Shown here piece after piece: positions 25,039 to 27,680 of a stretch of 64,000 nucleotides of DNA. The first letter of the stretch is position 1. Each line of letters begins with the position of its first letter. Source of the stretch: Methanofollis sp. W23 (GTDB lineage: Archaea > Halobacteriota > Methanomicrobia > Methanomicrobiales > Methanofollaceae); NCBI RefSeq assembly GCF_017875325.1, contig NZ_JAGGMN010000001.1:2066140-2130139 (forward strand), given 5' to 3'. The position numbers and the translations under genes are program-made. The notes under the pieces are model-generated. The model was not told the origin of the DNA. It saw nothing but the letters and a program-made list of their open reading frames with translations, and did not search any database.

Positions 25039-25851
25039 TTACCCCCTGATCACCGTCCCGACCCTTTCTCCCTTCACCGCCTTCGTGATATTGCCCGGCA
25101 CATGCCCGTTGACCACCTTGATCTCCTTCACGTGCTTGGTGTGGAGGAGGAGTTCGACTGCCCTGCGCTCCAGCACCAGGTCTTCGAGGTCCATGGCAAG
25201 GAGGGCCTTGGCCGAGATCTCAGGGATCAACTCGGCGCCGGGGTTGATCCTCGGGTCCTCGGAAAACTGGCCATCAACGTTCTTTGCAAGAATACAGTTC
25301 TTCGCCCCCATCACCTCGGCGATGAGCACCGCACCCGTGTCAGTCCGGTTTGGCGGGATCGATCCCACCTCGGCCGGTTGCTCGTAGAGCCCGTACGGTG
25401 GGGTGCCATGGGTCACCGGCAGGAGCCCGAGGGCGATGATCGTCGGAAGCTGGAGGAGGTCGGCGGTGTGGACCCGCACCCCCCCATAGGAAGAGAGGAG
25501 GACAGTCATCATGATCGCGTTCTGTTCGCTGATCTTGCCGGCAAGTTCGGCAAGCACGCCGGTCGGCATCCCGAGGTTGATGCCGATGTCCATGATATGG
25601 CGCACCCGTCCCCCGCCGCCGGTCACTACCAGCACCTTCTCCCCGCCCGTCTTGAGCGCCCCGATCTCCTCCACGATCGGGAAGACCACTTCCCTGCCAT
25701 AATCGATCGTCCCATGTCCGCCAAACTTGATCACATTCAGGTCTGGCATGATCCTGATCTGCGGGACCTCCCCGGTCCGCTGCATCAGTCCCTTTCTCAC
25801 CAGGGTCTCGCCCCGTAGCCCTGACTCCAGTTCATATCGGCCTGATTTCAT
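25039..25851 (-). CDS. molybdenum storage protein subunit (amino-acid-kinase fold), copy 1
   Basis: 270 residues of the MosA/MosB (UMP-kinase-like) family: IKFGGHGTIDYGREVVFPIV, LVVTGGGGRVRHI, GINLGMPTGVLAELAGKISEQNA, GTPPYGLYEQP, PPNRTDTGAVLIAEVMGAKN and a C-terminal VVNGHVPGNITKAV. Known family role: ATP-dependent storage of molybdate as polyoxomolybdate clusters in a cage. ATG 25851 follows AGGTGA at four bases. Pairs with a 270-residue paralogue at 26185, presumably the alpha/beta hetero-oligomer. Confidence 0.88.
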   Translation of the reverse strand: MKSGRYELESGLRGETLVRKGLMQRTGEVPQIRIMPDLNVIKFGGHGTIDYGREVVFPIVEEIGALKTGGEKVLVVTGGGGRVRHIMDIGINLGMPTGVLAELAGKISEQNAIMMTVLLSSYGGVRVHTADLLQLPTIIALGLLPVTHGTPPYGLYEQPAEVGSIPPNRTDTGAVLIAEVMGAKNCILAKNVDGQFSEDPRINPGAELIPEISAKALLAMDLEDLVLERRAVELLLHTKHVKEIKVVNGHVPGNITKAVKGERVGTVIRG

Positions 25852-25934: not shown

Positions 25935-26171
25935 ATGTTGAAACTCTATGTGAGAGAGAGGCAGAAGGTCGGCAGCGGTGTCAGGCAACCGAAGTATCGC
26001 GTCGTTGCCGCCACCGGCGGAAAGGGGGATGAAGGACACCTCAAGGTCGAGGCGACTCATTTCAGGAAGACCGAACTCGAGCAGATCGCCGCGGACGTGG
26101 GGGCCGAGATCGTCTGGCTCGAAGCGATGCCCGAAGAAAAACGCGGTGAGATGAAGGCCGCCGCCCGATAA
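25935..26171 (+). CDS. small protein linked to molybdenum storage, copy 1
   Basis: 78 residues, ATG 25935 after GGAGGG. Core LYVRERQKVGSGVRQPKYRVVA and 'HFRK.E(L/I)E.IAAD..AEIVWLE.MPE(E/D)K', shared with the 27084 paralogue. Soluble and cytoplasmic. It diverges from one storage subunit and converges on the other. Function unknown; the pairing suggests a regulator or accessory of molybdenum storage (inference). Confidence 0.75.
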   Translation: MLKLYVRERQKVGSGVRQPKYRVVAATGGKGDEGHLKVEATHFRKTELEQIAADVGAEIVWLEAMPEEKRGEMKAAAR

Positions 26172-26184
26172 AATGAAAAGAAGG

Positions 26185-26997
26185 TCAGGCCCTGATCAGG
26201 GTCCCGATCTTCTCACCCTTTACTGCCTTCGTGATATTGCCTGGCACATGCCCGTTGACCACCCTGATCTCTTTCACGTGCTTGGTGTGGAGGAGAAGTT
26301 CGACGGCGTTCTTCTCAAGGACCATGTCCTCCATGTCCTTTGCAAGCAGGTCGTCTGCCGTGATCTCAGAGATGAGGTCTGCCTCAGGGTCGAGGCGCGG
26401 GTCGTCGGTGAAGAGCCCCTCGACATTCTTTGCAAGGATACAGTTCTTCGCCCCCATCACCTCGGCGATGAGCACCGCACCCGTGTCGGTCCGGTTCGGC
26501 GGGATCGACCCCATCTCAGGAGGTTGTTCATAGAGCCCATACGGCGGGGTGCCATGAGTCACCGGCAGAAGCCCCAATGAGGTGAGTGTGGGAAGTTCGA
26601 GGAGGTCGTCTGACGAGACCTGCGTCCCGCCGTACGGGGAGAGGAGGAGGGACATCATCAGGGCATTCTGCTCGCTGATCTTGCCGGCAAGTTCGGCGAG
26701 CACGCCGGTCGGCATCCCGAGATTGATCCCGAGGTCCATGATATGCCGCACACGGACGCCGCCGCCGGTCACCAGGAGCACCTTCTCCCCGGCTTCCTTG
26801 AGGTCCCCGATCTCCTCCACGATCGGGTAGACCACCTCACGCCCGAAGTCGATGGTGCCGTGCCCGCCGATCTTGATCACATTCAGGTCTGGCATGATCC
26901 TGATCTGCGGGATCTCTTCGATCTGCCGCATCAGTCCCTTCCTCACCATCGTCTCTCCACGGAGCCCTGAATTCAGTTCAAACCGTTTTGCCGTAAT
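26185..26997 (-). CDS. molybdenum storage protein subunit, copy 2 (apparent ATT start)
   Basis: Paralogue of the 25039 gene, same blocks (IKIGGHGTIDFGREVVYPIV, MGINLGMPTGVLAELAG-like, GTPPYGLYEQP, NRTDTGAVLIAEVMGAKN, VVNGHVPGNITKAV). An ATG-only start at 26949 would drop 16 residues that the paralogue has. Homology continues upstream (xTAKRFELNSGLRGET versus MKSGRYELESGLRGET) to an ATT at 26997, which sits exactly where the paralogue has ATG and has the same AGGTGA-N4 site. With ATT both proteins are 270 residues. The 3' end lies 13 bases from the converging small gene. Confidence 0.85.
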   Translation of the reverse strand: MTAKRFELNSGLRGETMVRKGLMRQIEEIPQIRIMPDLNVIKIGGHGTIDFGREVVYPIVEEIGDLKEAGEKVLLVTGGGVRVRHIMDLGINLGMPTGVLAELAGKISEQNALMMSLLLSPYGGTQVSSDDLLELPTLTSLGLLPVTHGTPPYGLYEQPPEMGSIPPNRTDTGAVLIAEVMGAKNCILAKNVEGLFTDDPRLDPEADLISEITADDLLAKDMEDMVLEKNAVELLLHTKHVKEIRVVNGHVPGNITKAVKGEKIGTLIRA

Positions 26998-27050
26998 GAT
27001 ATCACCTTGAGAGAATGTTTATACGTAGAGAGATATAACAGAGCGTATAC

Positions 27051-27068
27051 CAGTTGGTATACCAACTG
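27051..27068. promoter_or_regulatory. perfect 18-bp palindrome, putative operator
   Basis: CAGTTGGTATACCAACTG, a perfect palindrome preceded by another GTATAC (27046-27051). It sits just downstream of a TATA-like AGATATAAC (about 27031-27039), between the divergent storage-subunit and small-protein genes. Overlap with the expected start site fits a repressor operator. The wHTH gene at 27330 is a candidate binder. Confidence 0.6.
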
Positions 27069-27083
27069 ATAGAGGTGATAACT

Positions 27084-27311
27084 ATGAAGATCTATGTCCG
27101 TGAACGACAGAAGGTCGGCAGCGGTGTCAAGCAGCCGAAGTTCCGTATCGTCGCCGTCACCGGTGACAGCACCTCCAGGAGACTCTGGGTGGAGTCCAAA
27201 CACTTTAGAAAGAACGAGATCGAGACCATCGCCGCAGATCTCGAGGCCGAGATCGTCTGGCTCGAACCGATGCCAGAGGACAAGCGCCCCCATACGAAGA
27301 AAAACGAATAA
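27084..27311 (+). CDS. small protein linked to molybdenum storage, copy 2
   Basis: 75 residues, ATG 27084 after GAGGTGATA. Paralogue of the 25935 product: IYVRERQKVGSGVKQPKFRI, then KHFRKNEIETIAADLEAEIV and EPMPEDKRP. Probably co-transcribed with the wHTH gene 18 bases downstream. Confidence 0.75.
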   Translation: MKIYVRERQKVGSGVKQPKFRIVAVTGDSTSRRLWVESKHFRKNEIETIAADLEAEIVWLEPMPEDKRPHTKKNE

Positions 27312-27329: not shown

Positions 27330-27680
27330 ATGTCTGCACTGAGCCCGGACGAGGTTCTCAACGCAGTGGCCCGGATCCTCATCTTTGAGGACCGTGCCAT
27401 CACATTTCTCTGTACTCAGGACGAAGTCAGCATCAGGTTCCCAAAGACCAGACGCCTTGCCGCTTATCTCTCGGTCCCGCACTATTATGTCATCCCAGTC
27501 CTCGCCGCCATGGAGGAGGACGGCCTGGTCACCCGCACCGAGCGGGTGGGAGTCTCGACCAATGCAAAAGGGACGGCACTCCTCTTCTCCAGGATCATGG
27601 AGCATTATCCTGCAGAGGTCAAGCAGATCCTCGGCAAAGACCTCCTCTCTGCGATCAGGGGAAGGATCTGTGAGGAGTGA
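27330..27680 (+). CDS. winged-helix-like transcriptional regulator
   Basis: 116 residues. A helix-turn-helix reading is plausible at TRRLAAYLSVPHYYVIPVLA, followed by a wing-like EEDGLVTRTERVGVSTNAKG, as in small archaeal MarR/PadR-like wHTH proteins. It ends the small-protein operon, and its likely target is the palindrome at 27051 (inference). No metal-binding motif seen. Confidence 0.55.
   Translation: MSALSPDEVLNAVARILIFEDRAITFLCTQDEVSIRFPKTRRLAAYLSVPHYYVIPVLAAMEEDGLVTRTERVGVSTNAKGTALLFSRIMEHYPAEVKQILGKDLLSAIRGRICEE

Follow-up and report, generated by a model that had tools for sequence, protein, structure and literature searches.

Gene content of the locus

The window, by which we mean the whole 64,000-nucleotide stretch of Methanofollis sp. 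W23 DNA that was analysed, carries two adjacent paralogous genes on its minus strand, here called copy A and copy B. Copy A has the AA_kinase fold (PF00696, 3.8e-28), and in phmmer comparisons with the molybdenum storage protein (MoSto) of Azotobacter it matched the beta subunit at 6.6e-58 and the alpha subunit at 2.5e-43. The best match to a UMP kinase reached only 3.8e-13, and among proteins of solved structure the two MoSto subunits rank first. The similarity to MoSto is full-length and stands above that to other AA kinases, which supports the molybdenum-storage label of the original prediction. A gene for a MOT1 molybdate transporter lies upstream, near the MoSto pair. The features of the locus are as follows.

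25039 to 25851, minus strand: copy B, the adjacent paralogue, 80% identical to copy A, 270 codons, ATG start in 7/7 genomes
25935 to 26171, plus strand: partner gene of copy B, small and divergently oriented, a paralogue of 27084-27311 and without hits in Pfam or NCBIfam
26185 to 26997, minus strand: copy A, MoSto-like (AA_kinase) coding sequence of 270 codons from ATT; conserved in 9 genomes of the genus
26947 to 26949, minus strand: ATG, codon 17 of copy A, the first canonical codon in frame; not conserved (TTG in G002, CTT in G006)
26995 to 26997, minus strand: proposed start codon ATT of copy A (ATC or ATA in sister species), from alignment and pattern search
27001 to 27007, minus strand: Shine-Dalgarno sequence AGGTGAT; GGTGATA is invariant in 9/9 and pairs with the 16S 3' end GGATCACCTCCT
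27018 to 27023, minus strand: TATAAA, proximal TATA-like box (-26 to -21), from sequence and alignment; putative promoter element
27033 to 27038, minus strand: TTATAT, distal TATA-like box (-41 to -36), from sequence and alignment; putative promoter element
27045 to 27065, no strand assigned: operator-like palindrome TTGGTATACCAACTGGTATAC between copy A and the divergent small gene, from sequence and alignment
27084 to 27311, plus strand: partner gene of copy A, small and divergently oriented, without hits in Pfam or NCBIfam

The small divergent proteins, one per MoSto copy, are about 75-80 residues long and share the motif [KL]xYVRERQKVGSGV; the family apparently also occurs next to the Methanospirillum homologue (L005). 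At 27330-27680 on the plus strand lies a gene for a 116-residue protein that resembles a winged-helix regulator by eye, has no Pfam match and is conserved beside the cluster in the genus.

On the minus strand the start region of copy A reads CAAGGTGATATC-ATT-ACG-GCA-AAA-CGG and that of copy B CTAGGTGAAGGT-ATG-AAA-TCA. The ATT at 26997-26995 shares its frame with the ATG at 26949, which comes 16 codons later. As originally predicted, the homology between the paralogues extends over these 16 codons up to the ATT, which aligns with the ATG of copy B, and the coordinates proved correct; both genes have 270 codons, and AGGTGA-N4 precedes the ATT of the one and the ATG of the other, so that AGG-N7-ATH in copy A of the window genome corresponds to AGG-N7-ATG in copy B. 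Followed back to its stop, the frame of copy A runs TAA ACA TTC TCT CAA GGT GAT ATC without any NTG, and a search for in-frame ATG, GTG or TTG from this upstream stop down to codon 17 of the window gene found none. The N-terminus encoded from the ATT is predicted to be (M)TAKRFELNSGLR.

Codon 1 of copy A across the genus

Copy A was found in nine of the 12 Methanofollis genomes examined, the proteins being 82-95% identical to that of the window gene. The window genome alone has ATT as codon 1 (1/9); six genomes (G001, G002, G004, G005, G006 and G010) have ATC and the remaining two (G008 and G009) ATA, while GGTGATAYY always precedes it and the pattern GGTGATAYYATH, which joins the ribosome site to an AUH codon, is matched in 9/9. 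The orthologue alignment makes ATT, as had been proposed, the best reading of the start in the window gene. A base-calling error that turned ATG into ATT, one of the two outcomes the original prediction had named as counting against it, has become untenable since ATT, ATC and ATA recur at the same codon in nine genomes. When NTG codons were sought from six codons upstream to five codons downstream of codon 1, they were absent in eight of the nine species; G010 alone has a canonical codon there, an ATG at codon 2.

The related genes start in the usual manner. The start of copy B, readable in seven genomes, is ATG in every one of them. Outgroup homologues, 34 in number, were taken from other genomes of the order (33) and from a Methanospirillum contig (1); 32 of them have an ATG and 2 a GTG no more than a few codons away from the aligned point. 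Together these starts occupy codons 1-2 or lie at most three codons upstream. An NTG near codon 1 is therefore present in 41/41 comparators (copy B and outgroups) versus 1/9 of copy A, a difference of descriptive value only, as the sequences are not phylogenetically independent and the Fisher comparison of start codons treats them as if they were.

Ribosome site and upstream DNA

The 16S rRNA 3' end of the window genome (L081) reads ...GCGGCTGGATCACCTCCT and is also given as GGCTGGATCACCTCCT. The GGTGAT of copy A forms 6-7 bp with this tail in 9/9 genomes, and the calculated Shine-Dalgarno duplexes of copy A all fall between -8.8 and -11.1 kcal/mol; those of copy B range from -6.8 to -11.5 kcal/mol, and its sites are less conserved than those of copy A.

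This pairing bears on an unlikely alternative, in which initiation is leaderless or otherwise atypical: the transcript would begin at or close to the ATH codon, as set by the TATAAA at -26, and GGTGATA would owe its conservation to a role as an operator or as one arm of a short GTGAT/ATCAC hairpin. A TATA-like box near -26 does occur in all species; however, the boxes at about -40 and about -26 both fit, and while TATAAA could imply a 5' end at or past the ATT, without the Shine-Dalgarno sequence, the distal TTATAT would yield a short leader that carries it. Pairing with the 16S tail in all nine genomes also speaks against this alternative. An inverted repeat resembling GTGAT-N3-ATCAC spans the Shine-Dalgarno sequence and the start (26992-27004, minus strand); it is perfect in three species only and broken in several. 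Conserved RNA structure around the start of copy A was rejected, the RNAalifold covariation term being unfavourable (+0.58).

Farther upstream, the core of the TTGGTATACCAACTGGTATAC palindrome is largely conserved ahead of copy A in nine genomes, and the palindrome is single-copy in the window genome. It is possibly a Mo/W-responsive site.

Extent of the translated frame

The 15 codons that follow codon 1 of copy A are conserved and vary at the third position. Over the nine copies, pN/pS is 0.144 for codons 2-16, 0.111 for codons 2-22 and 0.148 for codons 23-269, and the variable columns of codons 2-22 number 8/21, 2/21 and 19/21 at codon positions 1, 2 and 3, respectively (chi-square p 6e-7). 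Judged by these substitution patterns, purifying selection on codons 2-16 is of the ordinary kind seen in the rest of the gene. Upstream of codon 1 the third-position pattern was looked for in the nine copies and was absent, and indels of 1 or 2 bases put the species in different frames. Because the constraint holds from codon 2 and the frame is broken above, initiation must fall within GGT GAT AYY ATH or immediately downstream. Comparison among the genomes shows that translation of this frame has begun by codon 2.

An upstream canonical start was rejected, as no in-frame NTG lies nearby and the indels break the frame. Initiation at the GTG inside the Shine-Dalgarno sequence, followed by a frameshift, was also rejected: that frame closes at different places among the species (in G008 and G009 a TAA follows directly), and the alignments show no conserved slippery site.

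A canonical start farther down, at ATG17/GTG18 or ATG23, would shorten the protein by 16-22 residues. ATG17 is present in 7/9 copy A genomes and ATG23 is conserved in all copies of the genus, but the protein-level constraint on codons 2-22 (pN/pS 0.11), the conserved Shine-Dalgarno sequence right before the ATH codon, the MoSto alpha alignment that begins at query residue 11, upstream of M17, and the positions at which copy B and the outgroups begin all make such a start quite improbable. The second outcome named against the prediction, an N-terminus at the ATG at 26949, is weakened in particular by codon 17 being TTG in G002 and CTT in G006. Initiation at codon 2 is more improbable still, for although this codon is ACG in the window genome, G005, G008 and G009, and ATG in G010 and many outgroups, it is ACA in G001 and G004 and AAA in G002 and G006, which are implausible as starts, and codon 1 is the sole position that is near-cognate in all nine.

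From the alignments we estimate a probability of roughly 0.8 that the start codon of copy A in the genus is a real AUH codon, AUU in the window genome. Automatic annotation that admits only NTG starts would then truncate copy A or misplace its start.

Evolution of the paralogous pair

The copy A sequences form one clade (support 100/99). As copy A is a single clade, the AUH start would most simply date to its stem, with the canonical start lost once and the loss persisting through the genus. In the tree the archaeal pair arose through a duplication of its own within the lineage, so copies A and B do not correspond one-to-one with the alpha and beta subunits.

In G010, copy B (L036 1-470 and L035 480-1361) is interrupted after about six codons by a TnpB-type element whose TnpB/Cas12f-like domain matches Pfam PF07282 (2e-23); the remainder of the gene lies on another contig and contains frameshifts. 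The small divergent partner gene of copy B stays intact in this genome. The ATG at codon 2 of copy A in G010 looks derived, since its nearest relatives, G008 and G009, carry ACG there. G010 is thus the only copy A genome with a canonical codon at the start, and it is also the one in which copy B is broken; being one event in a fragmented genome, this coincidence is a hint and not a proof.

Subunit dosage as a possible role of the start codon

In the mechanism that we propose, the AUH codon of copy A would be picked by a strong Shine-Dalgarno helix at a fixed distance, and the initiator Met-tRNA would presumably read it with a third-position mismatch. It has been reported that aIF1 disfavours non-AUG initiation complexes in archaea (PMC6237735). 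Archaeal fidelity factors, aIF1 among them, would discriminate against the mismatch and cut the efficiency of the copy A start, so that copy A would be produced sparingly compared with copy B, and perhaps in a condition-dependent manner. Part of the weakness of AUH would be offset by the strong Shine-Dalgarno sequence, a compensation that PMC5622118 describes as general among non-AUG starts. Copy A would then be in limited or tunable supply, and this would set the subunit dosage in an assembly for storing molybdate/tungstate.

The regulatory meaning that we infer for the ATT start, namely that it holds subunit A low or regulated relative to its partner, is put forward tentatively, at somewhat less than even odds. 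It is equally possible, though short of probable, that the lineage keeps AUH by selection as a dosage or regulatory device in one of two paralogous subunits, and that this was relaxed to AUG upon loss of the partner; the single loss event, in the fragmented G010 genome, may be a coincidence.

A serious rival, on the question of why the codon is kept and not on the start codon itself, is that the AUH start is real but carries no regulatory meaning, the start having been lost through a slightly deleterious change that was fixed once and compensated by the Shine-Dalgarno sequence. This rival to the dosage step would account for the normal constraint on copy A despite a weak start, and for the invariant Shine-Dalgarno sequence, which is strong, as reported of non-AUG starts generally (PMC5622118). 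Yet a single substitution would create ATG, in G008 and G009 a transition of their ATA, and 0/9 genomes have it at codon 1; the sole nearby gain of ATG coincides with the loss of copy B. We regard it as a credible explanation, albeit one that we lean against.

Whichever holds, a conserved archaeal AUH start offers a natural substrate for asking how aIF1, aIF1A and aIF2 police start codons in vivo, and copy A opens the question whether archaea set subunit ratios through the choice of start codon.

Comparison with known systems

MoSto is an alpha3beta3 cage that stores polyoxomolybdate or polyoxotungstate. The genes described here resemble it (2OGX and others) in encoding AA_kinase-fold subunits of about 270 residues in two paralogous copies, with the closest match to beta; they differ in that copies A and B stem from their own archaeal duplication, and metal storage by them is putative.

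To our knowledge AUH starts are extremely rare, and the well-studied non-canonical starts (AUU/AUC in infC, GTC in sigR) are bacterial. The infC gene, which encodes IF3, starts with AUU or AUC in bacteria and is autoregulated by its own product. Copy A is like infC in retaining an AUH start codon across species, but it is archaeal and encodes a storage protein. Autoregulation of the infC/IF3 type was rejected for copy A because the gene encodes an AA_kinase/MoSto protein and no initiation factor, and archaea, as far as we know, lack IF3.

According to PMC5622118, which covered 36 groups of genomes, one out of 61,358 starts that were ancestrally AUG had switched to AUU. In a rough, non-exhaustive survey of 119 conserved genes over 400 kb compared with G005, in which many rows were shadow frames and candidates were inspected for three features upstream of the first NTG (a Shine-Dalgarno sequence, an ATH codon and conservation with a third-position bias), no second AUH start besides copy A was seen.

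The closest functional parallel appears to be sigR of Streptomyces, in which the start is conserved as GTC in 32/34 cases and GTT in 2, with a long conserved Shine-Dalgarno sequence that contains an out-of-frame GTG; this start has a role in holding one member of a pair below its counterpart, is repressed by IF3, and was tested experimentally through the N-terminus and mutants (PMC5472188). Both genes combine a conserved non-canonical start with a conserved Shine-Dalgarno sequence. The deficit of one partner is described for the bacterial, IF3-repressed sigR with its GTC/GTT start; for copy A it is proposed.

Among archaea, an ATC start was inferred by orthologue alignment for L12ae of Staphylothermus marinus (PMC2678158), likewise an AUH codon, though in a ribosomal protein of a single genome and with conservation of AUH not part of the case. 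An ATT start was inferred for Asgard AtubA from alignment, a model and the spacing of the ribosome binding site (PMC13394414); it too belongs to one of two subunit genes that lie side by side, but it concerns a tubulin and was predicted for one operon. No earlier clade-wide conserved archaeal AUH start was found in the literature searched, which left most subscription journals outside. Isolated ATC and ATT starts had thus been proposed for archaea before, and what copy A appears to add is the conservation of such a start at the level of an archaeal genus.
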